A stretch of DNA of 64,000 nt from Kiritimatiellia bacterium (GTDB lineage Bacteria; Verrucomicrobiota; Kiritimatiellia; CAIVKH01). The notes under the pieces were generated by a model. It did not search any database. It was given only the letters and a program-made list of their open reading frames with translations, and had not been told where the DNA came from. The stretch spans positions 1 through 64,000 of the forward strand of contig JANWZO010000013.1 in the NCBI GenBank assembly GCA_025054615.1, in the 5' to 3' direction. Positions 32,375 to 57,964 of this stretch are shown here, in pieces. The position numbers and the translations under genes were made by a program. Each line of letters starts with the position of its first letter. The first letter of the stretch is position 1.

Positions 32375-34543
32375 CTATCCCTCGTAAGAGGCCCAATCTC
32401 GGATCTTCGGATCCAGAGGCGAAACGGACTCGACCACCGCCTCCACCTCTCCGTGTTCAGACGGCACGGCAACCCGGTCGCCGGCGACATGGCCCATCAA
32501 GGTCTCCGCCATGCGGGATGTGGATGAAATGATGCCGAGGGAGGGCTCGCCGTCCCAAACGCCGAGGATATGGTAGGTTTCGCGGCGGCCATCGGAGTAC
32601 GCGAGCGTCACAGTCGTCGCCACGCCGGCCTTGTCAGCCGGGAAGTCGCGAAAATCGGTCGGCGTCACGCGCCGCAGATCCTGCATGAGCTCATCTCGCC
32701 GCCGAAATAGCAGCGCCTGCATTTCCTTGGCGGATTTGTACTCGTGATTCTCGCGCAGGTCGCCATAGCTGCGCGCGATGGCAATGTCCCTAGCCACCTT
32801 GGGGATTTCAACCGAGACTATCCGGTCCAGTTGCCGCTGCCGCTCGCGAAAACTCCGCAAGGAGGTTACCGGCCCCCGCGGTCCTGCGGGCCTTTCTTCC
32901 CGGGCCACCAGCAGCGCGCCCAACGAGGGATCCACTTTGACGATCTGACCGAGCACGGACGCGCGGTCCAATGAAGACCAGCCGGGCGACTCCTTGATGC
33001 GTTTGACCACTTTCTCGCGGTCGGCCGCGTCCATCATCCCCAGCATCTCCTTGAGCCATTCCGGTTTCGCGAAACGCTCGCGCATCTGATTTTGCGCCTT
33101 CAGCCGTTCCCCGGCGGCTTCCTGTTCGAGAGCCTCCACCATCAGCACCACGGCGGTGACCGGTGCGCAAAGATTCCACTCTTGAATTTTCTCGAGATTG
33201 CGGCTCAACCAGGCCAGCATTTCGAGGCTCGGCGCACGCACATCAAACACTCTCTTGAAACAGGCCGCCAGTTCGGCGGAGGCACCGGCCTCCTCGAGGT
33301 ATGCGACCGCCTCATTGAGAGGACCGGGATCCATCCGCGGAATCCGGTCGAGCAGCATCGACCGCAAGGTCGTCGCGTTCTGGCGGTCGAGATATCGCAA
33401 AAAGGCCCGCAACGGGCGCGCGGGCAACTGACGTACGACCTCGTCGAAAATGCGGCCCTGGAAGAAATCGGGCAGCCGCGCGCGATCGATTTGGTCACCG
33501 AGACCGAGCGCGTCGGCCGCAATGGCGAGGCGCGCAGGTGTTGCAAGATCCTGGCTAGGCGCCCCTTTTAGTGCGAAGCCGACCCGGTCGAGCACAATGC
33601 GCCGCTGCGCCTCCGTCAGCGCCTGGGCCGGCCCGCGAGCAGCCAATTCCTCCAGCGCTCCAACGATCCGGGCGAGGTTTCGCTCCCGCGCAAACGTGTC
33701 GAACCAATGGTCCTGTTGGGCGCGTCCACCCTCCATCAAGCGCATCGGCTCAGTCCGCGACGCGGGCAGGAGGACCGTGCCATCCTGCTTGAGTTTCTTG
33801 CGCGCCGCATCCCAGAAACGCTTCCAGTCCGGCTCCGTCACGATCGACGGCGACAACAGGCTCTGCAATTGCGCGGCAGTGACCGGACCGAAACTGCGCA
33901 GCGCCATGCGCACAACCTCCGCGGGATCGTCCCGGACCAAACGGCGCAAGTCCTCCGACCGGCGAACCTTCCACATCAAGAGATGGTCGTCCCCCACGAG
34001 CGACAGGCTCTCCGCGGCATAGGCGAGTGACATCTGATGTCCCGATCGCCGTTCGAAATCGATCTCAACCTTCTTGTTGAACGCATCGACGCGAGAGACT
34101 ATGCCGAGCCCCCAGGTCCGGTCGTACACGTGCGCCCCTTCCTTCAGGCTGACCAGCAGACGCAGCCGTCGGATGGCCTCGGTAGGCGGGATGGGCCGGG
34201 AAAAGCCCGCTTCATCAATCAGTGCGCGCTGTTCCCATTCGCCGCCCAGAATGTCGGCCGCCTCTTCCGGCCAATTCGTGGATTCGCGCAGTTCCGGGCT
34301 GGCCCAGCGAGCGCGCATCTGGAGAACCTCGAGCGCTTCCGGAATACGTTTTCGCTCGGCGAGCGTATCCTGCAAAAGCTCGAGACGCTGCTCGGCCTCG
34401 CGGACCTGTCCCGCCTCGTGCAGCATCCGCAGGGCTTCAAGAAGCGCGGCCACGTCGATAGCCTGCTTCCCGATCTGCGCCATGAACCATTCTTCCGTTT
34501 GCTGCTCAACCGGCGGCAGGGTCGTTTGCTGAATACCCGACAT
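32375..34543 (-). CDS. Long GreA/GreB-domain protein
   Basis: 722 residues, against about 158 in ordinary GreA. The C-terminal 150 residues are GreA-like: a coiled-coil tip SYGDLRENHEYKSAKEMQALLFRRRDELMQDL with the Asp and Glu that act in RNA polymerase cleavage, then a C-terminal FKBP-like domain (TVTLAYSDGRRETYHILG, ISSTSRMAETLMGHVAGDRV). The other 570 residues are helical, rich in Leu, Arg and Glu, and include a small beta segment GAHVYDRTWGLGIVSRVDAFNKKVEIDFE resembling a Tudor/CarD-like fold. It probably acts on transcription elongation. Confidence 0.8.
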   Translation of the reverse strand: MSGIQQTTLPPVEQQTEEWFMAQIGKQAIDVAALLEALRMLHEAGQVREAEQRLELLQDTLAERKRIPEALEVLQMRARWASPELRESTNWPEEAADILGGEWEQRALIDEAGFSRPIPPTEAIRRLRLLVSLKEGAHVYDRTWGLGIVSRVDAFNKKVEIDFERRSGHQMSLAYAAESLSLVGDDHLLMWKVRRSEDLRRLVRDDPAEVVRMALRSFGPVTAAQLQSLLSPSIVTEPDWKRFWDAARKKLKQDGTVLLPASRTEPMRLMEGGRAQQDHWFDTFARERNLARIVGALEELAARGPAQALTEAQRRIVLDRVGFALKGAPSQDLATPARLAIAADALGLGDQIDRARLPDFFQGRIFDEVVRQLPARPLRAFLRYLDRQNATTLRSMLLDRIPRMDPGPLNEAVAYLEEAGASAELAACFKRVFDVRAPSLEMLAWLSRNLEKIQEWNLCAPVTAVVLMVEALEQEAAGERLKAQNQMRERFAKPEWLKEMLGMMDAADREKVVKRIKESPGWSSLDRASVLGQIVKVDPSLGALLVAREERPAGPRGPVTSLRSFRERQRQLDRIVSVEIPKVARDIAIARSYGDLRENHEYKSAKEMQALLFRRRDELMQDLRRVTPTDFRDFPADKAGVATTVTLAYSDGRRETYHILGVWDGEPSLGIISSTSRMAETLMGHVAGDRVAVPSEHGEVEAVVESVSPLDPKIRDWASYEG

Positions 34544-38748: not shown

Positions 38749-38844
38749 ATCTACGCATAGGCCCCGCCGCTGGGCCTCTCCAGAAACACTCCCGCCAATC
38801 CCGCCGATGTGCTACTCATTCAACGCGGAGCAAGGGGAGGCGCC

Positions 38845-41184
38845 ATGCCCCATCATCGGCTCATAGTCGTCGCAAGCGAGCAGATCTGGCCCAACCTCTA
38901 CAGCATCGAATGGCTGGTTGGCGAACCGGCGGGTCTCGCCTCGCTCGAAATCCTCCACACGGCCGACGCCCATCGCTCGATCCAACCCGCCCGGCGTCTG
39001 CAACGGTTGGTGGAGCGCAACCACAGCGGCACGGTCGTCCACATGCACCCGATCGACATGCAGCCGGCCCGACTCTACGAAAAAATGGCGTCCATCGTGG
39101 CTGGCGATCCCAAAGCCCGGTGGGTGGTCAACCTCACGGGCGGCAACAAGCTGATCGCAATCGGCCTTTCGCAGGCGGTCGGGAAGGTCCCGGCTCAGTT
39201 CATCTATCGCGAAATTGACGGCGCGTGGTACGAATTCCGCCGAGAGAACGGCCTGTTGACTGGCTTTCCGATCGCCATTCCCGAAGATCGGGTCAATTCG
39301 CTGCCTCTGGACGAGCTGCTTTCTCTGCATTTCTCAACCCAGCACGATGTTCGCTGGGAGGGCCGCGACCCCCGCTGCCTTCCGCTGGAACAGCTTTTCC
39401 GGGCCGCCTACTCGAATGAGTGGGATTGGCGCGACGCATTCCAGACCTGCGGTCTCGGCGACGCGGGCGCCGCCGCAGGCGCGCTCTTTGAGGAGGTGAT
39501 TGCCGCGCTCGCCTCCGCGTTCCAGCCTGCAAGCATCTGGCTAAATGCGAAGGCGATCACCGCCGAAGGGCGGGTCGAGACGGAGTTGGACGTTGTCACG
39601 CACGATTCCGGCATCATCGTCTACTTGGATTGCAAACTTGCCCTCCAGGAGGACAAGGCCGCGCTGATTCAACAAATTCGCGATGCCGGCTCCGCTCTGC
39701 GCGCGCTCGGAGGCAGTAATGCCCGCGGCGTATTGATTCGGCCCAACTGCACATTCGACGACATCCAGCGCTCTTATGCCGCATCGCTCAATCTCGCTGT
39801 GATCGATCGGAGCCGATTCACATCCATCGTTGAAGAGCTTGCGCGGATCTATAGAAAGCCCGTTCCCGACGCCTTACGCGGGTTGAACGAGTTTCTGCGC
39901 ACGCAACCGGCCCCCCCCTCGCGGCCGTCCCGGCCGACCTCGGAGGAATCGCCGCCGGAAGAAATTCCCGGCATTTTGAATGCCGACCGATGGTCCGACC
40001 AGACCCTGACCCGAAATCAACGAACATGGACGGCCGTCTGGGTTACCCCGAACATCCTATACGTTCGCCACTACGAGCCCGAATCCGCTCTCGACCGACA
40101 TATCCTAACCCGGAGGGCGGAAAATTATTGGGGGCAGTTCGGCCAAATTCTTGATCTCTCGCTGGCGCGTCGGGGGCTGACCCTCCGGCTGCTTCTCAAG
40201 GTCCGTGCCAACAATCTCGGCCTGCTGGAGAACACGTTGCGCAGGATGCAGGGCAATTTTTCGCTCGCAGGAAATGGGCCGATCCGGCCGCCGGACGCCC
40301 GACCGCGCCGGATCATCACCCATTCCGGAAACGCGCACGCGGATGAGATCGCCGCTATCCTCGTCGCCCTCGCCGCAGACGACCGGATCATGGAAATCCG
40401 CCGCGTGCGGGAAGTCTCAGAGGATGAGCTCCGGGATCCCACCACCTACGTGGTCGACATTGGACGCCGCCACGACCGGAATCTCAAAAATTTCGACCAC
40501 CACCAGTTTCCCGCAGAGCCGTCCACTTGCTCGTTTTTGCTCATGCTCGAGCATTTCGAGCTGCTGGACGACGCGAAACGGTACTGGCCTTGGATCGAAA
40601 CCTTCGCGCGGATCGACGCAATCGGCGCCGCAACCGTGGCGCAAACCGCCGGATTCCCTGCTGAGCGGCTCAACGACCTGCTGGCCAACCCGATCGAACT
40701 GGCCTTTACCAGCTATTTTTCCCAGATCGATCGCCTCGAAGGGCACCATCCATTTTTCCGCGCTCTCGTCGACATGGGAAAACGTCTGGTTAGCGACTTA
40801 AAAAGCTGTCGGCGCGAGGAAGATCGGCTGGCCCCCTTGGTTCGCACCCTCGAGTGGTCGCCTGGCGCCCGCGCAATCGTCATCCCCTCTGCTCGGCACG
40901 TCCCGCCCGCCGTCTACTCCGCTGTCTCCCGTATTCTCGTGCGGGAAAGATGCCCCGACGCGCGCGCAATCGTTGCCGAAGACCCGCGCGGCGAGGGCTG
41001 GGCCATCATGCGGCTCGATACCTGTCCACCCGAGTCGCTCGATTTTCGGAGACTTCAGGGCGACCCGTCCATCGTCTTCGTGCACGCGTCGGGATTCCTC
41101 GCCACGACGCGGGCCATGTTGCCCGATAACCTGCTGTGCGAACTGCTCCGCCGGGCGGACATCGACAGACACCGGCCTTCGTAG
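38845..41184 (+). CDS. CARF (DUF1887/Card1-like) - PD-(D/E)XK nuclease - MYG1/DHH fusion
   Basis: 779 residues from ATG 38845, preceded by GGGGAGG; the ATG at 38809 lacks such a site. Residues 1-150 resemble the CARF part of DUF1887/Card1 proteins: VVASEQIWPNLYSIEWL and WVVNLTGGNKLIAIGLSQA (T98-G-G-N-K). Residues 200-320 look like the PD-(D/E)XK nuclease: E216/E217 in GALFEEV, D249 in TELDVV, and D262-C-K264. After a Pro-rich linker and about 110 unassigned residues, residues 487-779 match MYG1/DHH phosphoesterases: H493, H498 and D500-E501 (THSGNAHADE), D538, D551-H-H. I infer a nucleotide-sensing nuclease fused to a phosphoesterase that may act on the signal or on cleavage products. No cas10 is nearby. 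Confidence 0.8.
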   Translation: MPHHRLIVVASEQIWPNLYSIEWLVGEPAGLASLEILHTADAHRSIQPARRLQRLVERNHSGTVVHMHPIDMQPARLYEKMASIVAGDPKARWVVNLTGGNKLIAIGLSQAVGKVPAQFIYREIDGAWYEFRRENGLLTGFPIAIPEDRVNSLPLDELLSLHFSTQHDVRWEGRDPRCLPLEQLFRAAYSNEWDWRDAFQTCGLGDAGAAAGALFEEVIAALASAFQPASIWLNAKAITAEGRVETELDVVTHDSGIIVYLDCKLALQEDKAALIQQIRDAGSALRALGGSNARGVLIRPNCTFDDIQRSYAASLNLAVIDRSRFTSIVEELARIYRKPVPDALRGLNEFLRTQPAPPSRPSRPTSEESPPEEIPGILNADRWSDQTLTRNQRTWTAVWVTPNILYVRHYEPESALDRHILTRRAENYWGQFGQILDLSLARRGLTLRLLLKVRANNLGLLENTLRRMQGNFSLAGNGPIRPPDARPRRIITHSGNAHADEIAAILVALAADDRIMEIRRVREVSEDELRDPTTYVVDIGRRHDRNLKNFDHHQFPAEPSTCSFLLMLEHFELLDDAKRYWPWIETFARIDAIGAATVAQTAGFPAERLNDLLANPIELAFTSYFSQIDRLEGHHPFFRALVDMGKRLVSDLKSCRREEDRLAPLVRTLEWSPGARAIVIPSARHVPPAVYSAVSRILVRERCPDARAIVAEDPRGEGWAIMRLDTCPPESLDFRRLQGDPSIVFVHASGFLATTRAMLPDNLLCELLRRADIDRHRPS

Positions 41185-42906: not shown

Positions 42907-43600
42907 TCGCCGTCTGCCTCCGTTCTCCAAAGAGTAGCGTGCCGATTCGGATCAACGTCGCACCCTCCTCAATCGCCGGCTCGAAATCGCCACTCATCCC
43001 CATCGAGAGGTGCTCCAGCGGCGAGCCGGTCTCGCGCGCGAGCCGGTCGCGCAGTTCGCGCAGTTTTGCAAAATACGGGCGGGCCTTCTCCGGATCGGCC
43101 ACTAACGGCGCCATCGTCATCAGGCCCCTTACGACGACGTGCGGACACGCATTCGCAACGTCCAGCACAGAACGGACGGCTTCCGGCGCGAGGCCGAACT
43201 TCGACGCCTCGCCCGAAACGTTCACCTCCAGCAACACTTGTACAGTGCGGCCGCGCTTGGCCGCCTCCTCTTCGAGCGTGCGCACCAGCCGCTCTGAATC
43301 TACCGAATGGATCAATTCAAAAAGCTCCACGGCCCACTTGGCCTTGTTCGTCTGGAGGTGACCGATCAAATGCCATTCGAGATGGCTAGGGCACTCCGGA
43401 ATCTTGGCGCGGGCTTCCTGCACCTTGTTCTCGCCGAACACGCGAAGACCCAACGCGGCGGCTTCCGAAATCGTCTCGGGCGGATGTGTCTTCGAAACCG
43501 CAACTAGCGTGATGTCGCGCCGCGAACGGCCCGCGCGCGCGCATGCCGCGGCGATCCGCTCTTCAAGGCGTTGCAAACGCTCCGAAAGCCCGTTGGACAT
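42899..43600 (-). CDS. yggS: YggS-family pyridoxal phosphate homeostasis protein
   Basis: 233 residues from the ATG at 43600 (MSNGLSERL). PLP-binding alanine-racemase-like barrel without catalytic activity, with VAVSKTHPPETI (PLP-binding Lys), FGENKVQEA, WHLIGHLQTNKAKW, EVNVSGEASKFG, GLMTMAP and LSMGMSGDFEPAIEEGAT. It controls the free PLP level. Divergent from pabBC, with starts about 70 bases apart. Confidence 0.94.
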   Translation of the reverse strand: MSNGLSERLQRLEERIAAACARAGRSRRDITLVAVSKTHPPETISEAAALGLRVFGENKVQEARAKIPECPSHLEWHLIGHLQTNKAKWAVELFELIHSVDSERLVRTLEEEAAKRGRTVQVLLEVNVSGEASKFGLAPEAVRSVLDVANACPHVVVRGLMTMAPLVADPEKARPYFAKLRELRDRLARETGSPLEHLSMGMSGDFEPAIEEGATLIRIGTLLFGERRQTAND

Positions 43601-43670
43601 CGCCGGCGCTTGTACCGTATTTTTCGCGGCAAGCAAAACGCTTTCCTCGCGGTCTGACCGCTCGGCGCCG

Positions 43671-45386
43671 ATGCGAATCCTGATCCAGGGAGAAACCCGA
43701 TGGGGCATGCCGGCCTGGAGCCTCTTCCAGTCCCCGGCCGCCGTCCTCGCCGCCGATCGGCTCTCCGACGTTTGCCCGGTCCTGCGCGAGGTGGAACGCG
43801 CCGCCCAGCGCGGCCGGTGGTGCGCCGGCTACGTCGCATATGAGGCAGCTCCCGCATTCGATCCCGCGCTGCAGACCCACGCACCGCTCGCCCTGCCCCT
43901 CGCATGGTTCGCCATTTTCGAGGACATCCGAGCGGGCGAACTTCCCAACGCGCCGGCACCTCCCCTCCTCCCGGTCCCATTCTTGGATGAAGCCTCGTTT
44001 GCCCGCCGCGTCGCCGTAATCAAGGACGCCATCGCCCGCGGAGAAACCTATCAGGTCAATTTCACGTTTCCGCTGACGGCGGAGGATGAAGCCCCCGCCG
44101 AAGCGCGATTCGCGCGCATGATTCGGGCGCAGCAATGCGCCTACGGCGCGCTCATCGAGACCCCGGAATGGAGCCTCTGCTCGGCCTCGCCAGAACTCTT
44201 CTTCGCGCGCGAGGGAACAACCATTCGATGCAAACCCATGAAGGGAACAGCCCGGCGCGGACGGTGGCCGGAGGAAGACGAATCCCACCGCAGCCGCCTC
44301 GCCACCTCCGAAAAAGATCGCGCGGAAAACGTAATGATCGTCGACATGGTCCGCAACGACCTCGGGCGGATCGCCCGAATCGGCTCGGTTCGAGTCGAAA
44401 GCCTCTTCGACGTCGAACGTCTGCCCACGGTGTGGCAGATGACTTCAACAGTCACTGCGCAGACCGATGCCGGACTCGATTCTGTCTTTTCCGCCCTCTT
44501 TCCGTGCGCATCTGTCACCGGAGCGCCCAAGGTGCAGACCATGCGTATAATACGGGATGTCGAATCCGGCCCTCGAGGCGTGTACACCGGTGCAATCGGA
44601 TTCGTTGGCCCCGGCGGCAACGCCCGCTTCAATGTGGCGATCCGGACGCTTGTTCGGCTCCACGGCCGTTACGCGCGGTACGACGTCGGCAGCGGTATCG
44701 TCTGGGACTCGGACCCGCGGCGCGAATACGCTGAGTGTCTCGCCAAGGCGCGCGTGCTTTCCGAAGACCCCGATTTCAGGCTTTTCACGTCGCTTCGCTG
44801 GGATCCGCGGGAAGGCGCAGCGCTCCTCGATCGCCACTTCGAGCGCCTTTGCCGCTCTGCCGAACACTTCGGGCGCCCCTTCGATTCCGCGCGAGCGCGG
44901 CTGCGCTTTGAGGAGGCTGCCCGCGTCTTTCCCGCAGAGCCGCGCCGCGTCCGAGTTGAGTTAAGCGCGGATGGCGAGATCGCCATCACCCATGCGCCGC
45001 TTCCGTTCTCGGTCCCGCAACGGATCGCCCTCGCGCGCGAACCGATCGATGTCGACACTCCGTTCGTCTTTCACAAGACCTCCCGCCGCGAACACTACGA
45101 CCGCTTCCTTGCGATGCATCCCGGCGCGGACGATGTGCTGCTGTGGAACGAGCGCGGCGAAATCACGGAGACGGCCATCGCGAATGTTGCCTTTTTCCGC
45201 AGCGGCCAATGGGTGACACCACCGGTGGCCTGTGGCCTCCTCGCTGGCGTGATGCGCGCTGAATTGCTCGCGCGCGGCGACTGGGTCGAAGGCCGTATCT
45301 TGAAATCGGACGTTCGGGCCGGCGAGACGATCGAATTGGCGAATGCCGTGCGCGGCCGCTGGCGCGGCCAGTTGATCGAATCATGA
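43671..45386 (+). CDS. pabB: Fused aminodeoxychorismate synthase component I / 4-amino-4-deoxychorismate lyase
   Basis: 571 residues from the ATG at 43671. Residues 1-355 are the chorismate-binding PabB part: RGETYQVNFTFPL, CSASPELFF, CKPMKGTARRG, ENVMIVDMVRNDLGRIA, FPCASVTGAPKVQTM and GVYTGAIGFVGPGG. Residues 365-571 are PabC-like, a fold-type IV PLP lyase: FTSLRWDPREGAALLDRHFERL, FHKTSRREHYD (Lys), and LLWNERGEITETAIANV. Makes p-aminobenzoate for folate. The fusion is known from other bacteria. Confidence 0.93.
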   Translation: MRILIQGETRWGMPAWSLFQSPAAVLAADRLSDVCPVLREVERAAQRGRWCAGYVAYEAAPAFDPALQTHAPLALPLAWFAIFEDIRAGELPNAPAPPLLPVPFLDEASFARRVAVIKDAIARGETYQVNFTFPLTAEDEAPAEARFARMIRAQQCAYGALIETPEWSLCSASPELFFAREGTTIRCKPMKGTARRGRWPEEDESHRSRLATSEKDRAENVMIVDMVRNDLGRIARIGSVRVESLFDVERLPTVWQMTSTVTAQTDAGLDSVFSALFPCASVTGAPKVQTMRIIRDVESGPRGVYTGAIGFVGPGGNARFNVAIRTLVRLHGRYARYDVGSGIVWDSDPRREYAECLAKARVLSEDPDFRLFTSLRWDPREGAALLDRHFERLCRSAEHFGRPFDSARARLRFEEAARVFPAEPRRVRVELSADGEIAITHAPLPFSVPQRIALAREPIDVDTPFVFHKTSRREHYDRFLAMHPGADDVLLWNERGEITETAIANVAFFRSGQWVTPPVACGLLAGVMRAELLARGDWVEGRILKSDVRAGETIELANAVRGRWRGQLIES

Positions 45387-45578
45387 CCCGCCTACACAGC
45401 GGACCGGAGGAGTCCGTGACGAAAGCTCCTCGCCCTGCCGCCATCGCGGGCGCAACCTCTCGATCATGCTTCGGACGCCCATTTCGCAATCACGGACCCT
45501 CGAATTCATCTTGCGCATGTTCCGTCCGTAACGTCCTATTCGGAGCACCACACGCTTGAAATCCCTGAAACTCTAACC

Positions 45579-45617
45579 GCTGTGATTTGCAGGAACGGGC
45601 CGCTCGGATACACTTGT
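45579..45617 (+). CRISPR. Single (orphan) CRISPR repeat matching the tracrRNA anti-repeat
   Basis: One copy of about 36-39 bases, starting GCTGTGATTTGCAG and ending CGCTCGGATACACTTGT. The reverse complement matches the predicted tracrRNA anti-repeat at 49958-49998: 19 bases at one end are identical, and GCTGTGA, GCAG and AAC are kept with small bulges between. It lies 48 bases past the cas2 stop, where a type II-C array is expected, but I find no second copy and no spacers. It is either a collapsed or lost array or an assembly collapse. Confidence 0.7.
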
Positions 45618-45646
45618 GCCCCGCCAACCCTTTGGGATGGCGGGGC
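45618..45646. terminator. Strong hairpin between orphan repeat and cas2
   Basis: GCCCCGCCA pairs with TGGCGGGGC (nine bases), then an A/A mismatch and CCC/GGG around a TTT loop. The plus-strand side is followed by TTGTCTTGTT. It can terminate rightward transcripts (pabB or pre-crRNA) and also falls just after cas2 on the other strand. Confidence 0.6.
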
Positions 45647-45664
45647 TTGTCTTGTTCAGGCCGC

Positions 45665-45994
45665 CTAAAAAAACTCGAGTTGGACGGGCGCATCTTCGGG
45701 TTTTTTCGATTTTCTTCCCACATACAGCTCCATTTTTCCGAACTGATGGTCTGTCAGCGTAACGACCCGCACATGTCCCTCCTCCGGCAGCGCTTCCCGA
45801 ACGCGCTTTCGGTGAATCTGGCTGGACTCCTCGCTGGCGCAATAGCGCGCATAGACGGACAACTGAAGCATGATGAATCCGTCCTTCAACAGTTCGCGCC
45901 GAAATCGCGCGTAGGCCCGCCGATGTTTCTGCGTCTCGACGGGCAAATCAAACATCGCTATCAACCACACTGCCTTGTATGCCGAATTGACCAA
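45665..45994 (-). CDS. cas2: CRISPR-associated endoribonuclease Cas2
   Basis: 109 residues. Ferredoxin-fold partner of Cas1 in spacer acquisition. The opening VWLIAMFDLPVETQKHRRAYARFRRELLKDGF, with the conserved Asp, and LQLSVYARYC are typical of the type II form. Start is 14 bases after the cas1 stop. It is the last gene of the cas9-cas1-cas2 operon. Confidence 0.95.
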   Translation of the reverse strand: MVNSAYKAVWLIAMFDLPVETQKHRRAYARFRRELLKDGFIMLQLSVYARYCASEESSQIHRKRVREALPEEGHVRVVTLTDHQFGKMELYVGRKSKKPEDAPVQLEFF

Positions 45995-46008
45995 CTCGAC
46001 GCGCCCGC

Positions 46009-46914
46009 CTATCCAAAAACTAGCGGGACCTCCAGATCGGCCTCATCGCCCGCGAAAATCCGCACCAGTTGAGCCGCCATCATCGAGGCAATATCAAACA
46101 GTGTCCGCTGCTCTTCGCGGTAGGTGTACCTTCCCAGCAGCGGTTCGATGAGCCGGCGTTTTCGTTCGCGGTCCAGCGGCAGCTCGGGACCCTCGCTCCG
46201 GACCATGCGGGCCACCGTTTCATCCACAAGCGGCCGAAACGGCTCCATGAGGTCGTCCGCCAGCGCGCACGCGTTTTCGCGGTGGCGATGATGGATGCCG
46301 AGCGCGGGATGGAGGCCCGCGCCAACCACGGCCCGCGCCAGGATCCCCCGCAATACCGCATACCCGTAATCGAGCAGATGGTTGGGCGGGATGGGCGCTC
46401 CCGGTTCCCTTCGGAACGATTCGAGACGAAAGAGGCGCGGCCAATAGGCGCGGGCCGCCTGCGCCTCCACGTTGGAGGCGTCGCCGGAGCGCACGCGCCG
46501 CGCCAGCAGCGCCACGCCGCCGTCTGAGCCGTCCAGCCGCTGCAGCACGGCGCCTTGCGCGCGGACCTTCGCCGCGATGATGCCCTTCCAAAGACGCTTG
46601 ACCAGCGGCCGTGATTGAAGCGCCGCGATCTGAAGCCGGAGGGTCTGAGGATGCAGGGAATGCCCTGCCAGCGGGGCCAGAAGCGCCAAGGGCATGGATT
46701 TTTCATCGAAGAGAACGACGGCCACATTGCGCTTCGCCGCTTCCGAGAGAACGCTGTGCGTATACGACGCCTGGGCCGTCGCCAGGATCAGCACGGCGAG
46801 GTCGTCGAGGGGAATCGAGCGCGGCTCGCTGTCCTTTTTTTCAACCACCAGCAGGCCGTTTTCGATCCGAAGCCGAACGGGGCCTTCCGAGATTTCAATC
46901 ACGCGGTTAGTCAT
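46009..46914 (-). CDS. cas1: CRISPR-associated endonuclease Cas1
   Basis: 301 residues, type II form. Metal-dependent integrase that inserts spacers with Cas2. N-terminal beta domain (VLILATAQASYTHSVLSEAAKRNVAVVLFDEKSMPLALL), then the helical domain with EAQAARAYW (catalytic Glu), LLDYGYAVLRGILARAVVGAGLHPALGIHH (His) and the DLMEPFRPLVDETV acidic residues. Active-site residues are intact. It overlaps cas9 by eight bases. Confidence 0.96.
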   Translation of the reverse strand: MTNRVIEISEGPVRLRIENGLLVVEKKDSEPRSIPLDDLAVLILATAQASYTHSVLSEAAKRNVAVVLFDEKSMPLALLAPLAGHSLHPQTLRLQIAALQSRPLVKRLWKGIIAAKVRAQGAVLQRLDGSDGGVALLARRVRSGDASNVEAQAARAYWPRLFRLESFRREPGAPIPPNHLLDYGYAVLRGILARAVVGAGLHPALGIHHRHRENACALADDLMEPFRPLVDETVARMVRSEGPELPLDRERKRRLIEPLLGRYTYREEQRTLFDIASMMAAQLVRIFAGDEADLEVPLVFG

Positions 46915-49909
46915 GCGCCCGGCGATATTCGCCCAACGGGTCCACGGAAAGTTTCGTCAGCCCGAATTGCCGCAGTTTGTCAGCCGATCTGATTCGGATG
47001 GGATCATGGATCTTCGTAGCCGGCCGCCCATCCGAAACTTCCCGAAAATTATAGTCTCTTTCCGAGAGACGTTGGACGACATAGAATTTTTCGGCGCCAT
47101 CATGCCGCATAAGGACCGTATCGCCGATGCAGAGGGAGCAGACGAGCGGGTTGCCGGACTCATCGACGCGACGAATGATCGGTTCGCCGAAGCGCTTGCG
47201 CCGCATGGCCTCGAACCGGGACACGACGACGACGCGCCAGGAGGGTTGGCCCCGTTTGTCGCGCGTTTCGAAAATCTCGGCGTGATGGTTTCCGCCGCCG
47301 GCGACATTTCGAGCGGGCTCTAAGCGAATGAGGTTGTCGGCGGCAATCTTTCCCGACTCGATCCGAACCCGGCGGATGGGGATGGCCCTGCCGGATTTGG
47401 TCGGCAGGACGGGGCGCCGGGCCGGGTCGGCAAAGACTTTTCTGGGGTTGCCGCCCGCCGCGGCCGCGCGCACGAGCTCGCGAATCCGGTCGTCCACGAT
47501 CTTGTCGATGTCATCTTCGGACAGGTCGGTCAGGGCTTTTCGGATCACCACCAGGGTCTTGCCGTTTTTACGGATGATGCCGTAGTGCGACTCGTTGTGC
47601 AGCGAACCTTGGACACGGCGATCCACGCGGTGGGAGACCAGCATGGTTCGAATATGGTGCTCAATCTGCTGGTATAGGGCTGGGGGTAGAGCCATCCCCG
47701 TGTATGTCCCCGGCCGCTGCGCGCGAGAGGCGGCGAGGGTCAATTCTCTTGTGAGCGCAGGGGTTGTCAGGGCCACCACGATCGCGTCGATCGCGTGGTG
47801 CCGGTGATCTTCTCGGTTTTTTTCATCCGCAATGCCCAGGATTCGGTTGAGATTCCACGCGCTGCGGAGCTGCGCGGTGGTGCGACCGGCGCTGACCTGG
47901 ATGCGGGATTTGCGCTCCTCGGGCGGGTAGAGGCGGCCCAGATATTCCGCGGCCCGGCGAGCCGCCAGCGACGTGGCGTGCAGATCGGCGCCTGTCCATA
48001 CCAGCAGTCCGGTTTCGGGCCCTTCCGGATTTTCACATTGGAACCGGCGCAATTTTTCCATTGCGTATGGGCTTTTGAATTTTTTCACGCGGGAGAGGAT
48101 CGCCTCATATCGTTCTTTGTCGCCGCTGAACGCCTCAAACGGCGTTTTGTCGCGCTTCTCCCTGTTCGCGTCGCGACGACAGAGCGTTTTATTCGCGAAG
48201 GAATTGTCGAGACTCCGGCTCCACGGGATGATGTGCTCGACCTCGACGAGGGGGTGGGGTCCGAACAGGTCGCGGAATGAGATGCCGTTTCCCGTATATG
48301 GGCAGATGCCACCGCACTCCTCAAACAACAGGGCCTTTTCAATATCGGCGGGCGACGGGTTCGAGATGCCGGCCTTGTTGATAATTTGTTCCCGCGCTTT
48401 TTCCCGCTCGGCGGCGCGCTTGCGCATGGCCTCCCACATTTCCACGCGGGCCGCTTTCGGCTTTTTGAGGTCTCGGGCCAGTTCGAGCCGGATCTTTCCG
48501 GGCAGGCCGTATTTTTGGAGGATCGCGTTGACGACGCGGCGCATTTCGGTCATGGCCCGCTGCGCGGTGGGATTGCGCAGGTCCTCGACGGGCGGCAGCC
48601 GGTCCACCTGGGGTTCCGTCCCTTGGTTCGGATAGACCCGCTGGACCGCCTCGGCATAGGAGAGGCCATGCTCCAGGTGGGGCAAGAGCCGGCGGATGGC
48701 CTTGCTGGAGAGGGCGCCGTGATCGTCCTCGAGCGTGATTTCGCTCAATTTCTCCGCTTCGTCCGGCGTGAGGCCCCACGGCTTTTTTAGCGCCAGATCT
48801 TTGAGCAGGTCCTCGTCTTCAATGCTGGCGACCGCCTCGTAGATGGCGGCCCTGATGGGTTCCGGCGCCTCGTCCCACTTGGCGCCGATGGCGGAACGGA
48901 TCCGGCAGGCGGTCACATTCCCTTTGATCTCCTTTTCCCCGCCCTCTTCCAGATTGAAGGTGAATCCCCGTTTCAAGCTCAGCGCCTTCCGCAATTCGGC
49001 GAACGACACCTTTTCGTTGCGTTCGAGCAGCTCGATGACTGTTTTGCGCTGCTCTTCCGTCAGTTTCTGGGAGACGCCGCCAAAGGAACGGACCGCCAGG
49101 TGATTGGCCGCCTGCAGAAGTCGGAACCGCTGATATAGCGGGTGAGAGGCGCGGATCCGCAAGCGCCGCGGCTCAAACGGACAGCGGCCGATGGAGGCAG
49201 GGTCCCACCAGACTTTTCGCTGGAAGAAGATTGCGCGCCGCAGCGCGTGGACGAAGGTCTCTGGCAAATGCAGCCCCAAGTTCTGCTGCCGCTCGATGAT
49301 AAGGTCGAATTCATGCCGATACCAATCCCGAGAGGTGTAGCGGCCGCGCAGCCGCTGCTCGTGCGGATTCAGGCTGGCCAGGTATTCTCCGAGGGTTTCC
49401 GCGCCCGCCCGCCGCATATCCTCATCCAGCCTGCGGATTTCGGCCTTTACGACGCCGCGTTCTTCGTCTTCGGAACTCTCCCGCCGATTGGATTTGAAGC
49501 CGCGGCGGTGCGCGATGTGAAAGATGGCCCGCCCGAATTCATACGGGTCAAGCCGGCTGCGTAGCGCCTTGGCCCGGCAGTCGTACGGATTCAACCCCAG
49601 GACGGCCTGCCAGGAAGCGTCGCTGGGATCCGGCGGGTTTTCCGGCAGAAATCCATTTCGTTGCAGCAGGGTTCGGACAGCGTGCAGCCGCATCCGGCGG
49701 CGGGCCAGAAGTCGCCGCCGCAAGCGCGCTTCTCGCCGCTTGACGTTTCGTGAACGATATTGATCGTTTTCATCCACTCCCAGCGGGAACACTCGTGCGC
49801 CTGCGGCGACGAGCTGGTCCCCGTCTGCCGTCTGATCGATGATCGCCCAGCCCACCGAGCGCGCCCCGATATCCAGACCCAAGATTCGATGTTCGAGCGG
49901 TTTGTTCAT
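46907..49909 (-). CDS. cas9: Type II-C CRISPR RNA-guided endonuclease Cas9
   Basis: 1000 residues from the ATG at 49909, which has GGAGG seven bases upstream; the longer frame to 50023 enters the promoter and tracrRNA. RuvC-I is LGLDIGARSVGWAIID near residue 10, the Arg-rich bridge helix RREARLRRRLLARRRM is near residue 55, and RuvC-II is RLELARDLK (Glu near 476). The HNH domain contains VEVEHIIPWSRSLDNSFANK (His near 558), and RuvC-III is HHAIDAIVVAL near 704. All nuclease residues are present. The compact size without a cas4 or csn2 gene fits II-C. Order is cas9-cas1-cas2, overlapping. Confidence 0.97.
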   Translation of the reverse strand: MNKPLEHRILGLDIGARSVGWAIIDQTADGDQLVAAGARVFPLGVDENDQYRSRNVKRREARLRRRLLARRRMRLHAVRTLLQRNGFLPENPPDPSDASWQAVLGLNPYDCRAKALRSRLDPYEFGRAIFHIAHRRGFKSNRRESSEDEERGVVKAEIRRLDEDMRRAGAETLGEYLASLNPHEQRLRGRYTSRDWYRHEFDLIIERQQNLGLHLPETFVHALRRAIFFQRKVWWDPASIGRCPFEPRRLRIRASHPLYQRFRLLQAANHLAVRSFGGVSQKLTEEQRKTVIELLERNEKVSFAELRKALSLKRGFTFNLEEGGEKEIKGNVTACRIRSAIGAKWDEAPEPIRAAIYEAVASIEDEDLLKDLALKKPWGLTPDEAEKLSEITLEDDHGALSSKAIRRLLPHLEHGLSYAEAVQRVYPNQGTEPQVDRLPPVEDLRNPTAQRAMTEMRRVVNAILQKYGLPGKIRLELARDLKKPKAARVEMWEAMRKRAAEREKAREQIINKAGISNPSPADIEKALLFEECGGICPYTGNGISFRDLFGPHPLVEVEHIIPWSRSLDNSFANKTLCRRDANREKRDKTPFEAFSGDKERYEAILSRVKKFKSPYAMEKLRRFQCENPEGPETGLLVWTGADLHATSLAARRAAEYLGRLYPPEERKSRIQVSAGRTTAQLRSAWNLNRILGIADEKNREDHRHHAIDAIVVALTTPALTRELTLAASRAQRPGTYTGMALPPALYQQIEHHIRTMLVSHRVDRRVQGSLHNESHYGIIRKNGKTLVVIRKALTDLSEDDIDKIVDDRIRELVRAAAAGGNPRKVFADPARRPVLPTKSGRAIPIRRVRIESGKIAADNLIRLEPARNVAGGGNHHAEIFETRDKRGQPSWRVVVVSRFEAMRRKRFGEPIIRRVDESGNPLVCSLCIGDTVLMRHDGAEKFYVVQRLSERDYNFREVSDGRPATKIHDPIRIRSADKLRQFGLTKLSVDPLGEYRRAHD

Positions 49910-49925
49910 GACCGACCTCCAACTC

Positions 49926-49953
49926 TTGACGATTATCGTGAAATTGTCATAGT
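49926..49953 (+). promoter_or_regulatory. Candidate tracrRNA promoter
   Basis: TTGACG (49926-49931), 16-base spacer, CATAGT (49948-49953). A start near 49959 puts the anti-repeat right at the RNA 5' end. Confidence 0.55.
49929..49939. promoter_or_regulatory. Palindrome inside the divergent cas9/tracrRNA promoters
   Basis: ACGATTATCGT is a perfect palindrome around a central T. It covers the cas9 -10 box and the end of the tracrRNA -35 box. A protein bound here would affect both transcripts. The binding factor is unknown. Confidence 0.35.
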
Positions 49954-49961
49954 AGAGACAA
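49932..49961 (-). promoter_or_regulatory. Candidate cas9-cas1-cas2 promoter
   Basis: Minus strand TTGTCT (49956-49961), 18-base spacer, GATAAT (49932-49937), 22 bases before the cas9 ATG. It overlaps the tracrRNA promoter on the other strand almost completely. Confidence 0.5.
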
Positions 49962-50079
49962 GTGTATCCGAGCGGCTCTTGTTTCTGCTTTTCACAGCAA
50001 GAACTTGAGTTCGCAGAGTGCATTCCTGCGGGAATGCAAATCGCCCTCGCGCACGACCTCGTCGGCCGGGGGCGTTTTT
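49958..50079 (+). ncRNA. Predicted tracrRNA of the type II-C system
   Basis: About 120 nt. The 5' anti-repeat (49958-49998, starting ACAAGTGTATCCGAGCGGC) is complementary to the orphan repeat beside cas2. Then come hairpin GAAC-TTGA-GTTC (50001-50012), hairpin GCATTCC-TGCG-GGAATGC (50020-50037), and a terminator hairpin with CGCCC/GGGCG ends (50042-50074) followed by TTTTT. In the type II crRNA:tracrRNA duplex the tracrRNA 5' end pairs with the repeat 3' end, which fits the orientation found. Confidence 0.8.
50042..50079 (+). terminator. Rho-independent terminator of tracrRNA
   Basis: CGCCC at 50042-50046 pairs with GGGCG at 50070-50074, with an inner CGAC-CTC-GTCG stem, followed directly by TTTTT. 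Confidence 0.75.
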
Positions 50080-50184
50080 ATTTCGATGGAGGGAGCGGTT
50101 TGCCTGGCCGGCGCTGGCGGAAGGTCGTGCAGCGCCGGCGCGCGGGGCTGGCTCGACTAGCGAACCCGCTCGGCCAACGGTTTA

Positions 50185-50251
50185 TTTTCCATGGCATGGA
50201 AAAAGGGGGCGCGACAGCTTCCATGGCATGGAAATTCCAGAGTATGGAAAT
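50185..50251 (+). repeat. Dispersed 67-bp repeat of three palindromes, copy 2
   Basis: TTCCATGGCATGGAA at 50187-50201 and 50219-50233, and TTCCAGAGTATGGAA at 50235-50249. Centre spacings are 32 and 16 bases, the same as copy 1 (11489-11555) when read in the same orientation. It lies in a non-coding gap of about 350 bases between the tracrRNA terminator and the glycosyltransferase gene stop at 50433. The rest of that gap shows nothing I can name. Confidence 0.8.
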
Positions 50252-50432
50252 TTCGGCGCGACGCTGGCCGGTCGGGGCGCACGAAATCGACTGATCGGAG
50301 CGAGGAACAGCGGCGAATCGGGGAACGTGATGCGACCCCGTCAGGGCGCGGCTGAGCCGCCGGTTGTAATTTGCGTTGCAGGTCGCGAAGCTCTCGGGGG
50401 GCTCGGGCAACGCGCTGGCGCAACGATTGACC

Positions 50433-51509
50433 TTAGCGGCGCGGCACGCGCGCGAGCAGCGCGTCGAATTCGGCCTCCAGATTTCGCGCGCGGACCTGAT
50501 CGATTCGACGTTGCTGAGAGGCTAAGACTTCGCGGCGAACGGCGCGATCATTCGCGATCTTGTGCAAGAGTACCGCCAGTTCTGCCGTCGTGAGCCCTTC
50601 ATACAAGACGCCCGCGCCGCCCATCGCCTCGGGCATGCCGCCGATGGCATGGGCGACCACGGGTACGCCGCAGTACATCGCCTCGAGCAGCGGCAGGCAG
50701 TAGCCTTCATGATCGCTCGTAGACACGTAAACGTCCGCGCAGCGGTAATAGGTCGGCAGGCCGCGGGGCGATGCGAACCCTTCGAAGCAGACGTTCGGTA
50801 GATCGAAGTCGCCCGCGAGCATCCGGAGCATCGCAAAATACCGAGGGCAACTGCGGTCGGAGCCGACGATCACGAGCCGACTAAAAGGATCGAGGGTTTT
50901 GTGATACCAGTTGAACGCCTCGATCAGCACTTCGAGCCGCTTGTTAGGGGCGATGCGGCCGACGGTGAGAAAGGTGGTGAGCCTGCGCCGGAATCGGATG
51001 CGGACGTCGGGGTCGTCCGGCACATCGAGCGGGGTGGGATCGAACACTAGGGGGAACACGGCAGGATCGCGTGCGCCTGAGGCGCGCAGTTCCGCCGCGT
51101 TGAATTCAGAGACGGCCCAGCAGGCATCGGCGCGCCGGACGACATCCGGCAGCCGCTCGCGCGCGCGGGCGAGCTGGGCGGCAACCGCGTCGTCGAATCC
51201 GCGGAAAAATTCGGCGGGGGTAATGTTGTGGTAGACAAGAACCCGGGACGCGGGGGACTCGAGGAATCGTTCGACTGCCGGCGAGGCGATCGAGTAATGG
51301 TGCAGCACGAGATCGCCCGCGCGGCCCTGATATTCCTCCAGCGGGCGGCACTCGCCGCGAACGGCGGGCGCGACGTGCGCGGCGGGGGCGAAGATTTCCG
51401 AGGCCGCCCCGCGCCGGCGCGCGAGATCGCGGAGGACGCGCGCGCAATTCGAGATGGCGTCGCCGTCGGCGAATCCGTTAAGGATTTGATGGATGGCGGG
51501 GACGGACAT
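50433..51509 (-). CDS. GT4-family glycosyltransferase
   Basis: 358 residues. GT-B fold retaining glycosyltransferase. The nucleotide-sugar domain shows FLTVGRIAPNKRLEVLIEAF, LVIVGSDRSCPRYF, FEGFASPRGLPTYYRCADVYVSTSDHEGYCLPLLEAM (with the E-x7-E type motif) and GVPVVAHAIGGMPE. The acceptor domain has VLHHYSIASPAVERFL. It probably builds cell-surface polysaccharide in the cytoplasm. One base separates it from the coiled-coil gene upstream. Confidence 0.88.
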   Translation of the reverse strand: MSVPAIHQILNGFADGDAISNCARVLRDLARRRGAASEIFAPAAHVAPAVRGECRPLEEYQGRAGDLVLHHYSIASPAVERFLESPASRVLVYHNITPAEFFRGFDDAVAAQLARARERLPDVVRRADACWAVSEFNAAELRASGARDPAVFPLVFDPTPLDVPDDPDVRIRFRRRLTTFLTVGRIAPNKRLEVLIEAFNWYHKTLDPFSRLVIVGSDRSCPRYFAMLRMLAGDFDLPNVCFEGFASPRGLPTYYRCADVYVSTSDHEGYCLPLLEAMYCGVPVVAHAIGGMPEAMGGAGVLYEGLTTAELAVLLHKIANDRAVRREVLASQQRRIDQVRARNLEAEFDALLARVPRR

Positions 51510-51510
51510 A

Positions 51511-51933
51511 TCAGGCGGGCGGTCGTTCCCGCAGGCGTTCCAGTTCCCGCCGCAGGGCGGCGATCTCTGCGCCCTGTGCTTCGAGAAGCGCGACCAAGTT
51601 CGAATTGACCCGATTTTGCCGAAAGGCTAGCCGCTCGTGTTGATACCGGAGAAGTACCCACAGCAGCGAGCGAACCGCCCACGTTGCGAGGCCGAGTATT
51701 CCTTTCCGCCGAGGAATTTCATAGCCGAGCGTGTCGATGTGTTGGCGACGGCGCACGAGGTCGGTGAGGATTTCCAGGTATTCCCGCTCCGAACGGGCTT
51801 CACGCAGCCGAAGCGCGGCAATCTCCGGCGGCAGAAAAATCGCGCGGCGCTGGGCCTCCATGCGCCGGACAGTCTGACGGATTTCGGGCGCCCACTCGGG
51901 GGCGCGGTCGCGGTTTGCGAGGAGAATCCTCAT
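51511..51933 (-). CDS. Hypothetical protein with hydrophobic helix and coiled coil
   Basis: 140 residues, no family recognised. The first half is charged and helical (QTVRRMEAQRRAIFLPPEIAALRLREARSEREYLE). A short hydrophobic segment GLATWAVRSLLWVLLRY follows at about residues 80-96, and a C-terminal coiled coil with regular Leu/Ala spacing (NSNLVALLEAQGAEIAALRRELERLRE). Overlaps the YihY gene by four bases and sits one base before the GT4 gene, so it may help that glycosyltransferase at the membrane. Confidence 0.65.
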   Translation of the reverse strand: MRILLANRDRAPEWAPEIRQTVRRMEAQRRAIFLPPEIAALRLREARSEREYLEILTDLVRRRQHIDTLGYEIPRRKGILGLATWAVRSLLWVLLRYQHERLAFRQNRVNSNLVALLEAQGAEIAALRRELERLRERPPA

Positions 51934-53264
51934 ATCGCACGCTCAACGAGCACGCTGAGGGTTTGGTCGTCCATCGCCGATACCAAGCGCCGGCGCAAGT
52001 CGGCCAGCGCGGCGCTGGTCGCAGAGTCCAGCCGTTCGGGCCGCAGGCTTTCCGGCGCGGCCCCGTCCTCGAGGAGCCGCTCCACGACGGACCCTACCGT
52101 CAACCGATCGGGATCGCGCAACAGGACGACGCTGCCAGGGGCGTCGGCGCGTTCGGCGAGCAGGCCGACGCGCGCGAGCTGCGCGGCCACCTCGTTCACG
52201 AGGCGGATGGGGACCTGCCGGTCAGCGGCGTAGGCGGCCAGGTCCACGGTCTCTCGCTCGCCGCGAAGCGCACGGGCGGCTTCAACCAACAGCGAGATGG
52301 CCAGCGCGAGGCGGGCCTGGACGCTCGCGCGGGCAGCGATGCGCTCGAGGGGGTATGTGGCGTGGTGCTGGAACGCGAAGGCGATTTCCGCGCCGAGCAG
52401 GATGATCATCCACCCCACATAGAGCCAGATGAGAAAAATCGGGATGGACGCGAACGCGCCATAGACCGCGTCGTAGCGCGACAGGGAGACCTGCATGGAA
52501 ATGTAGAGGCGTTGCCAGCCGAGCCAGAGCAGGGCGGTCACAAGCGCCCCTGCGGCAGCGGCGCGGCGGCGGACATGCGTATTCGGCATGAAGATGAACA
52601 GCAGAAAAAACGCGAACCACGCGGTGGCAAGGGGGGCAGCCGGCATGAGCACAGCGAGAAGATGCCGACCTTCGACGGCGAGGGCGCTCGACAAAAACTG
52701 GGTTTTGAGAGAGGCGCTGACGGCAAACCCCGCCATAATCAGGACCGGCACCGCCACGACAACCGAAGTGTAGTTGGTAAATTTCCGCCAGAGCGAGCGA
52801 GACTCCGACACGCCCCAAATGCGGTTGAACGAAGCCTCAATACTGCCCAGGGTCTGCACCGCGGTTACGAACAACACCGCTACGCCGATCCACCCGAGCG
52901 TGCGGAGGTTGGCGCGCAGGACCAGGTCGGTCGTTATCAGGACGAATTCGCGAAATTGCGCAGGCATGGAGGCGACGGCATCCGCTATGCGGTCCATCGC
53001 TTCTTCAGCGCCGCCAAATCCCTTGAGAATGGCAAAGGCGAGGGTCAGCAGGGGCACCAGCGCAAGCAGCGTGGAGAACGTGAGGGCGGCGGCATGGATG
53101 GCGAGGTCGTCCTCCCGGAAGCCGCGTACGACGAGCTGGCCGATCCGGATAAGCCGGATGGCTAATCCTTTGAGCCCCTTCAACGTCGAAATTTCCGCTG
53201 GCCACGCGTCGAGGTCGAAAATGCTCCGAAGCCGGGCGCGCAGGTTGGATCGGCCAGCGATCAT
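51930..53264 (-). CDS. YihY/BrkB-family inner-membrane protein
   Basis: 444 residues from the ATG at 53264, which overlaps the NUDIX stop (ATGA). Six-helix YihY fold: GFREDDLAIHAAALTFSTLLALVPLLTLAFAIL, then TLGSIEASFNRIWGVSESRSLWRKFTNYTSVV, then FMPNTHVRRRAAAAGALVTALLWLGWQRLYI, and YGAFASIPIFLIWLYVGWMIILLGAEIAFAFQH. An extra C-terminal domain of about 120 residues looks like a winged helix (VNEVAAQLARVGLLAERADAPGSVVLLRDPDRLTVGSVVERL). Function is unknown; the family was once misnamed ribonuclease BN. Confidence 0.9.
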   Translation of the reverse strand: MIAGRSNLRARLRSIFDLDAWPAEISTLKGLKGLAIRLIRIGQLVVRGFREDDLAIHAAALTFSTLLALVPLLTLAFAILKGFGGAEEAMDRIADAVASMPAQFREFVLITTDLVLRANLRTLGWIGVAVLFVTAVQTLGSIEASFNRIWGVSESRSLWRKFTNYTSVVVAVPVLIMAGFAVSASLKTQFLSSALAVEGRHLLAVLMPAAPLATAWFAFFLLFIFMPNTHVRRRAAAAGALVTALLWLGWQRLYISMQVSLSRYDAVYGAFASIPIFLIWLYVGWMIILLGAEIAFAFQHHATYPLERIAARASVQARLALAISLLVEAARALRGERETVDLAAYAADRQVPIRLVNEVAAQLARVGLLAERADAPGSVVLLRDPDRLTVGSVVERLLEDGAAPESLRPERLDSATSAALADLRRRLVSAMDDQTLSVLVERAI

Positions 53265-53803
53265 GGAGCGCGCGGGTCCGCGATGCATTCCCGATACAGC
53301 GCCCACGCGGCGAGGGTTTTGGCGTCCTCGATCTGCCCGTTGCGAACGCGGGCGCGAAATTCTTCGTCCGTGAGCAACTCAAGCACGAGGCGCTCGTCGT
53401 GGTCGAGGTCGCGCGGCCCTGCCGCATCTGCCTCGCCGTAGAAGCAGACGATCCGTTCTTCGACGTAACCGGGCGTCGGGTAGAGCACGCCGAGCCGAAC
53501 AAGGCGTTTGAGGGAAAAGCCGGTTTCCTCCCGAACTTCGCGGCGGGCGGCGTCCTCCGGCGGCTCGTTGGGATCCAGGATCCCGGCGACGACCTCGAGC
53601 ATTTCCTTTTGCGCGCCGCATCTGAATTGCCGGACAAAGGCCCATCGGCCGTCGGGGGCCCGGAGCCAGACGCAGATCGCGCCCGGGTGGCGGACGAGTT
53701 CTCGGTAGGCGCGACGGCCGTCCTCCAATTCCACATCCAGGGTTTCGACGCGGACGAGGCGGCCCGCGAACGCCGTATTTCGCGACAGAGTTTTCTCGTG
53801 CAT
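53261..53803 (-). CDS. NUDIX hydrolase, ADP-ribose pyrophosphatase type
   Basis: 180 residues. The Nudix box GILDPNEPPEDAARREVREETGF fits GX5EX7REUXEEXGU. The upstream segment VVRHPGAICV-like (LVRHPGAICVWL) and PTPGYVEERIVCFYGE match NudF-type ADP-ribose pyrophosphatases. Hydrolyses ADP-ribose or related nucleotide sugars. Nearly divergent from the dGTPase-like gene. Confidence 0.88.
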   Translation of the reverse strand: MHEKTLSRNTAFAGRLVRVETLDVELEDGRRAYRELVRHPGAICVWLRAPDGRWAFVRQFRCGAQKEMLEVVAGILDPNEPPEDAARREVREETGFSLKRLVRLGVLYPTPGYVEERIVCFYGEADAAGPRDLDHDERLVLELLTDEEFRARVRNGQIEDAKTLAAWALYRECIADPRAP

Positions 53804-53838
53804 GGTCGATGTCCGTTGAAAGGCCCGATGTGGATCTT

Positions 53839-55014
53839 ATGATACCGACCGTGCTGCGTTCGAGAAAAGAAACGGAGGCTCTCGAGGATCAGACGCTGGC
53901 GCCCTATGCGGCGCGGAGCGCCTGCAGCCGGGGTCGGCGCTATCCGGAACCTCCGCACGAACATCGCACGGAATTCCAGCGCGATCGCGACCGCATCCTG
54001 CACAGCCGCTGCTTTCGGCGGCTCGAGTACAAAACGCAGGTGTTCATCAATGGCACTGCGGATCACTACCGAACCCGGCTGACGCATACGCTGGAGATGG
54101 CGGCCGTGGGGCGGACACTCGCGCGCGCGCTGGGCGCGAATGCCGATTTGACCGAGGCGATTGCCCTCGCGCACGACATCGGGCACAGCCCGTTTGGACA
54201 CGCTGGAGAGGAGACCTTGAACGAGTTGATGGCGGACCACGGTGGCTTCGACCATAACGTGCAGAGCGTGCGGTGGGTCGAGGAGCTGGAATCCAGTTAT
54301 CCGGGGTTTCCCGGGCTGAACCTGACCTGGGAAGTTCGGGCGGGGCTCTTTAAGCACCAAGCGGCAATTCCTGGTTTTTGCGTGGACGGCCATCCCATCG
54401 GGCCCCATCAAATGATTGAGGCGCAGATGGCGGATGTCGCCGACGACATGACGTATTGCGCGCACGATGTGGATGACGGGCTGGAGGCGGGTCTGCTGAC
54501 AGAGGACTTGCTGCTCCGGACAGAGGCGTGGCGCCGCGCGGCGGAACGCGTCCGCCGTCAGTACGGCGACCTGCCGGAGCCGAAGCGGTTGGCCGCCGGC
54601 GTGCGCGCGCTGCTAGACATGCAGGTCGAGGATGTGCTGCGGCATACGGAGGCTCAGCTCGACCGGTTCAAGCCCGATTCTCCGGCCGCGGTAATGAACT
54701 GCCCTGAACGGATCTGCGGCTACAGCTTTGAGATGCGGGAAATCATGCGCGATTTCCGAAAGTTTTTGTTCGAGAACATGTATTGGTCGCCAATGGTGGA
54801 GACCGCAAACCGCGAGGCCACGGCGATGATGCGGCGACTCTTTCTCCACTATGTTGCGCATCCCGAGACGATGGGCCGGAAGGCGCAGGCGCGGATCCCG
54901 AAGGACGGGATTTGGCGCGCGGCCTGCGACTATTTGTCCGGGATGACCGACCGGTACGCGCTGGCCGAATACCTGAAATTCGGGCTCGACCGGGAGGCGC
55001 CGGCGGCTCAGTAG
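53839..55014 (+). CDS. dgt: dGTPase-like HD-domain phosphohydrolase
   Basis: 391 residues from the ATG at 53839; an ATG at 53809 leaves only five bases to the divergent NUDIX start and is less likely. HD-fold: RDRDRILHSRCFRRLEYKTQVF, TRLTHTLEMAAVGRTLARALG (first His), EAIALAHDIGHSPFGHAGEE (HD), DDMTYCAHDVDDGL (last Asp). Hydrolyses dGTP or other dNTPs to deoxynucleoside and triphosphate. Such enzymes also restrict phages in some hosts. Overlaps the convergent sugar-transferase gene by seven bases. Confidence 0.92.
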   Translation: MIPTVLRSRKETEALEDQTLAPYAARSACSRGRRYPEPPHEHRTEFQRDRDRILHSRCFRRLEYKTQVFINGTADHYRTRLTHTLEMAAVGRTLARALGANADLTEAIALAHDIGHSPFGHAGEETLNELMADHGGFDHNVQSVRWVEELESSYPGFPGLNLTWEVRAGLFKHQAAIPGFCVDGHPIGPHQMIEAQMADVADDMTYCAHDVDDGLEAGLLTEDLLLRTEAWRRAAERVRRQYGDLPEPKRLAAGVRALLDMQVEDVLRHTEAQLDRFKPDSPAAVMNCPERICGYSFEMREIMRDFRKFLFENMYWSPMVETANREATAMMRRLFLHYVAHPETMGRKAQARIPKDGIWRAACDYLSGMTDRYALAEYLKFGLDREAPAAQ

Positions 55015-56417: not shown

Positions 56418-56462
56418 GTGCTTTTCGTTGAGCGACGCACTCCGCGGCGCTGCGTCCCCGTC

Positions 56463-57890: not shown

Positions 57891-57896
57891 GCGCGG

Positions 57897-57925: not shown

Positions 57926-57964
57926 GATCGGCCGTCGGCGCGCCACCACCTGCTCGATATCTTC

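Follow-up and report, generated by a model that had tools for sequence, protein, structure and literature searches.

The gene at 38845-41184 (+) of the window, the window being the whole 64-kb stretch of DNA analysed, raises the question of what use a bacterium may have for a CARF sensor, a nuclease and a MYG1-family DHH enzyme joined in one polypeptide. The gene is a single uninterrupted open frame of 779 aa and its start codon, an ATG at 38845, is preceded by a Shine-Dalgarno-like stretch (AAGGGGAGG, 38830-38841, +), as read directly from the sequence. Codon-position GC content stays uniform from one end of the gene to the other, including the joint between the nuclease and MYG1 parts. Four parts are encoded in the one chain, these being a CARF domain, a PD-(D/E)XK nuclease domain, a small alpha/beta domain and a complete MYG1-family DHH domain. 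The three-part chain and the unbroken frame proposed in a sequence-only reading of this DNA were borne out by the frame itself, by profile matches and by the Pfam match to MYG1. All of the residues named in that reading are present (TGGNK, E216, D249, D262-C-K264, THSGNAHADE, D538 and DHH 551-553), but its nuclease set was incomplete, as E247 (Can2 E276) belongs to it too.

The CARF sensor domain covers residues ~1-150 (38845-39294, +) and the PD-(D/E)XK nuclease domain residues ~170-345 (39352-39879, +), both having been located with Pfam, PADLOC, profile search and alignment with Can2. With the single sequence as query, Pfam gave matches to CARF_Card1 (residues 7-114, E-value 1.1e-3, 19.4 bits vs a cut-off of 24.6) and Card1_endonuc (residues 241-332, E-value 0.012, 15.6 bits vs a cut-off of 26.4), where the curated cut-offs are thresholds of the library and not biological definitions. 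As these scores are sub-threshold, the assignment of the front half is carried by a profile of six sequences, headed by the 779-aa protein and completed by five relatives, which among solved structures matched Can2 (7bdv, E-value 6e-15) and Card1 (6wxw, E-value 1e-8). The CARF-nuclease models of PADLOC match residues 6-299 (E-value 3.9e-11). Alignment with Can2 shows that its side-chain contacts to cA4 at S19, T42, K99 and Y118, as listed for that protein (PMC7969007), are identical in S11, T39, K102 and Y121, with K102 closing the TGGNK motif (98-102), and that two contacts are changed, D20 to E12 and S121 to I124. In the nuclease, E247 and D249 are the counterparts of Can2 E276 and D278, with D262-C-K264 further along the chain, and all six aligned sequences share E216, D249, D262 and K264. 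Having the TGG-x-K motif and most of the cA4-contact residues in its sensor, and the catalytic E, D and (D/E)xK in its nuclease, the front half is assigned to the Card1/Can2 type, in agreement with the sequence-only reading. Models of these two parts, made with no homologues, came out at low confidence, and the folds rest on sequence profiles; a Foldseek search with the whole chain, which gave no match at an E-value of 0.001, is uninformative for this half as a consequence.

In a tree of front halves the 779-aa protein groups with L017 and with a sister clade of six proteins of ~500 aa from the same class (L081:1480-2937, L082:1108-2568, L083:1114-2595, L084:1108-2577, L088:1108-2586 and L037:895-2331) with support of 100/98. 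The surroundings of L017 are a type III locus that includes RAMP genes, Csx1 and Cas6. Type III operons hold intact Card1-type relatives, with the order RAMPs, Csx1, relative, cas6 at L072, and with the relative of a neighbouring clade (L079/L110) directly behind cmr2-cmr3-cmr4-cmr5-cmr6-cmr1. The six sister proteins have, on alignment with Can2, lost the lysine of TGG-x-K and the equivalents of catalytic E247 and K264, and those of their neighbourhoods that were read hold ordinary genes and no recognisable cas genes; this clade may represent a non-CRISPR use of the Card1 scaffold. Since the sister clade has lost most of these sensor and nuclease residues, their retention in the 779-aa protein argues for function.

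Residues ~353-385, behind the nuclease, are of low confidence in the models. They are followed by a small domain at residues ~390-475 (40012-40269, +), which had no sequence match in any library searched. When modelled alone with no alignment it is predicted, in just the top model of five, to form beta-beta-alpha-beta-beta-alpha-beta, with a block confidence of about 61-86. Its topology is RRM/ferredoxin-like and Foldseek returned RRM (U1A) and eIF1-like matches, the best at an E-value of 3.5e-3, which indicate topology only and are not significant. The sequence-only reading had set aside about 110 residues here as a possible new linker domain. The stretch is real and without assignment, but it is predicted to be a folded domain, and it is probably not unique, as all six sister proteins have a conserved C-terminal domain of ~125 aa at the corresponding position behind their nuclease. 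Visual comparison shows a recurring W-x-A-x-x-V-T-P motif in some of these proteins. Sequence homology between the small domain and that of the sister clade was not significant, however: the score was 3.0 bits, the best-scoring of 1000 shuffles reached 6.3, and with hhalign 19 of 200 shuffles were at least as good. The middle region is probably a diverged form of the sister domain, and it might possibly bind RNA or mediate dimer contacts.

The MYG1-family DHH/DHHA1-like domain takes up residues ~488-775 (40306-41169, +) and matches Pfam MYG1_exonuc (UPF0160, PF03690) above the gathering score (E-value 4.6e-10, 40 bits vs 22.1) as well as a solved MYG1 structure (E-value 5e-5). Standalone MYG1 homologs of ~300 aa, from Verrucomicrobiota and Planctomycetota, align over residues 488-770 with up to 38% identity. 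Residues H493, G495, H498, D500, D538, G540, D551, H552 and H553 are invariant in 58 MYG1 relatives and all are present in the 779-aa protein, as is D591, which is D in 93% of these relatives. The C-terminal FVHxxGF motif is also there as FVHASGF (745-751, with F745, H747 and F751). Taken with H493-x-G-x2-H498-x-D500, D538, D551-H552-H553 and the following D591, this points to a MYG1 (UPF0160) enzyme with its motifs kept, and an AlphaFold model using 12 relatives gives block-averaged confidence of mostly 76-95 over residues 489-770. The MYG1/DHH identity claimed earlier for the C-terminal part is well supported, and structure prediction, which had been put forward as a check on the whole chain, upholds this part and leaves the front half at low confidence. 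MYG1 enzymes have been described as 3′-5′ RNA exonucleases (PMC10089162, PMC11167044) and in yeast MYG1 restrains the L-A virus (PMC10089162); no description of the substrate or role of bacterial MYG1-like proteins was found in the literature searched.

The neighbours of the gene are housekeeping genes. Upstream lie infC, an MBL hydrolase gene and yfcE, which are syntenic with genomes of the same family (up to 76% identity for the MBL hydrolase). These genomes keep the order MBL - yfcE, with infC where the stretch reaches that far, and other genes then follow in those that were read, which places the fusion at a variable junction. Separate type II cas genes, cas2, cas1 and cas9, lie outside the gene, 4.5 kb downstream (45665-50023, -), the cas9 product of this locus having 1038 aa. 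A tandem-repeat scan of the 64-kb window found no CRISPR array, and there are no array-like direct repeats at 43000-60000. Type II cas genes are not known to make cyclic oligoadenylate (cOA). The source genome does encode a type III-B Cas10/Cmr2 (TIGR02577, E-value 4e-57) with GGDD and an HD-like N terminus, on contig 6 (L043:2-2116, -), where the frame runs off the contig end just after GGDD. The gene at 38845-41184 is on another contig and not beside cmr genes. No RAMP-family cmr genes were found in the incomplete assembly of the source genome, and the rest of the cmr operon is probably unassembled or unbinned. With a GGDD-bearing Cas10 in the same genome, a source of cOA probably exists there. 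The association with type III systems that the sequence-only reading had suggested thus finds support in this Cmr2 and in the intact front-half relatives within type III loci.

The explanation we favour, with slightly less than even confidence, is that the protein is a Card1/Can2-like ancillary effector of CRISPR immunity, activated by cOA, to whose C terminus a MYG1-family DHH nuclease has been added. If the ligand, its activating effect and the sequence in which the two nucleases act are inferred correctly, the type III-B complex (Cas10/Cmr2, GGDD) would sense foreign RNA and make cA4 or a close relative, which the CARF part would bind as a dimer. The PD-(D/E)XK part would then nick DNA and cut RNA with no choice of sequence, and the MYG1 part, held beside the cuts, would degrade RNA from the freshly made ends in the 3′-5′ direction, turning cleavage into destruction. 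RNA digestion is favoured as the role of the MYG1 part because MYG1 has been described as a 3′-5′ RNA exonuclease with an antiviral role in yeast. Put more broadly, there is nearly an even chance that a MYG1-family exonuclease has been recruited to CRISPR immunity in a protein that would sense cOA, cut, and then either trim the products or erase the signal, in parallel with the role of MYG1 against L-A in yeast. The data contain a single fusion, too few to demonstrate that its parts were selected together.

The rival with the most to commend it, though rather unlikely in our judgement, is a self-limiting effector as envisaged by the sequence-only reading, in which cOA bound by the CARF domain would switch on the nuclease, and the MYG1/DHH part would destroy cOA, or the linear A2>P that ring opening leaves behind, with timing set within one chain. 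Such an arrangement is not new in principle. Csx1-Crn2 of Marinitoga piezophila, likewise a CARF effector fused to a further phosphodiesterase, is a self-limiting fusion (PMC7293037), although its parts are an HEPN RNase and the Crn2 ring nuclease, neither PD-(D/E)XK nor DHH. The DHH enzyme NrN degrades SAM-AMP and is in some species, such as Aliarcobacter butzleri, fused to the CorA effector (PMC10600005), giving a type III effector joined to a DHH phosphodiesterase as here; CorA-NrN differs in being a membrane channel with a SAM-AMP signal, an NrN-type DHH domain and no CARF nuclease. A DHH phosphodiesterase also takes part in type III signalling as MAD of Sulfolobus islandicus, a membrane-associated DHH-DHHA1 nuclease degrading cOA (cited in PMC7854544), which is a separate enzyme and not fused to an effector. 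CorA-Csm6-2 is a further known case among self-limiting or double effectors. It may also be counted for this reading that the ring-nuclease family TIGR02584 gave no match in the source genome, though the controls of that search gave none either. Against it, MYG1 is a distinct DHH family described as a 3′-5′ RNA exonuclease, and to an exonuclease a ring offers no end to start on; NrN is a specific enzyme that left cA2-cA6 uncut (PMC10600005); and no sequence feature points to cOA as the substrate of the MYG1 part. A second nuclease step is, on balance, at least as likely a role for the DHH part as degradation of the signal. A self-limiting effector in one chain has precedents in Csx1-Crn2 and CorA-NrN, and what appears new is the CARF-PD-(D/E)XK-MYG1 combination, seen once, in a draft genome that the grouping of its genes in the trees would place in Verrucomicrobiota.

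It is also conceivable, though quite unlikely, that the genome's own MYG1 was fused to a CARF-nuclease while retaining its household role in RNA or oligonucleotide turnover, with little functional coupling. No other MYG1 match was found in the source genome, MYG1-like genes that stand alone occur widely across the phylum, and in the tree of MYG1 halves this one groups with free-standing proteins from its own family (L014, 99/87) and its own class (L022, 98/83). That grouping may suffer from long branches, however, MYG1 has a patchy distribution within the class (matches to either half, mostly MYG1, in 28 of 346 genomes) and so is not a required household gene, and the CARF and nuclease residues are conserved rather than decaying. 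More doubtful again is a role outside CRISPR, with the front half belonging to a class-specific clade that left CRISPR and the protein answering a different nucleotide. The grouping with the sister clade and L017 (100/98) would fit such a history, as would the position of the gene among housekeeping genes and the lack of recognisable cas genes in the sister neighbourhoods that were read; it is opposed by the sensor and nuclease residues that the sisters lost and this protein kept, by the type III locus of L017 within the same clade, and by the Cas10 of the source genome. An assembly or binning error joining two genes, or chance read-through, is very improbable. The fusion is known from a single genome, in an assembly of 51 contigs, but the frame has no stop, codon-position GC is even through the joint, the joint lies well inside the contig with the syntenic infC, MBL and yfcE upstream, and both halves have their closest relatives within one class, in the case of the MYG1 half within the genome's own family.

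The protein shares with Can2/Card1 the domain order of its first ~345 residues, TGG-x-K, the cA4-contact positions and the E...E-x-D...(D/E)-C-K pattern. The solved members (366-405 aa), by contrast, stop after the nuclease, where the 779-aa protein adds the small domain and MYG1 and is encoded away from type III genes. With MYG1 exonucleases (UPF0160, PF03690) it has in common all the DHH-family motifs and the C-terminal FVHASGF, but MYG1 is standalone in every other genome examined and is here fused behind a CARF-nuclease, as a subfamily that has diverged from canonical MYG1. No second fusion was found in 58 relatives, in 346 genomes of the class and 388 of the phylum (overlapping sets, roughly 700 phylum genomes), or in viral contigs and phage or plasmid records. 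An exact-peptide scan of genome contigs returned 12 loci, every one with the MYG1 half only, and an open frame of 439 aa (L066) was rejected as a candidate, its N-terminal part being low-complexity sequence. No publication naming CARF and MYG1 together was found in a literature search that did not include the main CARF classification paper (10.1093/nar/gkaa635). These searches of genomes and literature agree with the earlier remark that the domain order is unreported. CARF effectors are catalogued by the part fused to the sensor, and MYG1 is without a reported CRISPR link in the literature searched. If active, the protein would have a single cOA switch controlling both endonuclease and exonuclease, or a DHH off-switch built into a Can2-type effector, and it would also give an antiviral context for bacterial MYG1-like proteins.

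Two further multidomain proteins are encoded elsewhere in the window. The gene at 32375-34543 (-) codes for a protein of 722 aa in which the GreA/GreB domains are only C-terminal, the long N-terminal part having no Pfam match, and that at 43404-45386 (+) codes for a PabB-PabC-like fusion of a chorismate-binding enzyme with an aminotransferase class IV domain.
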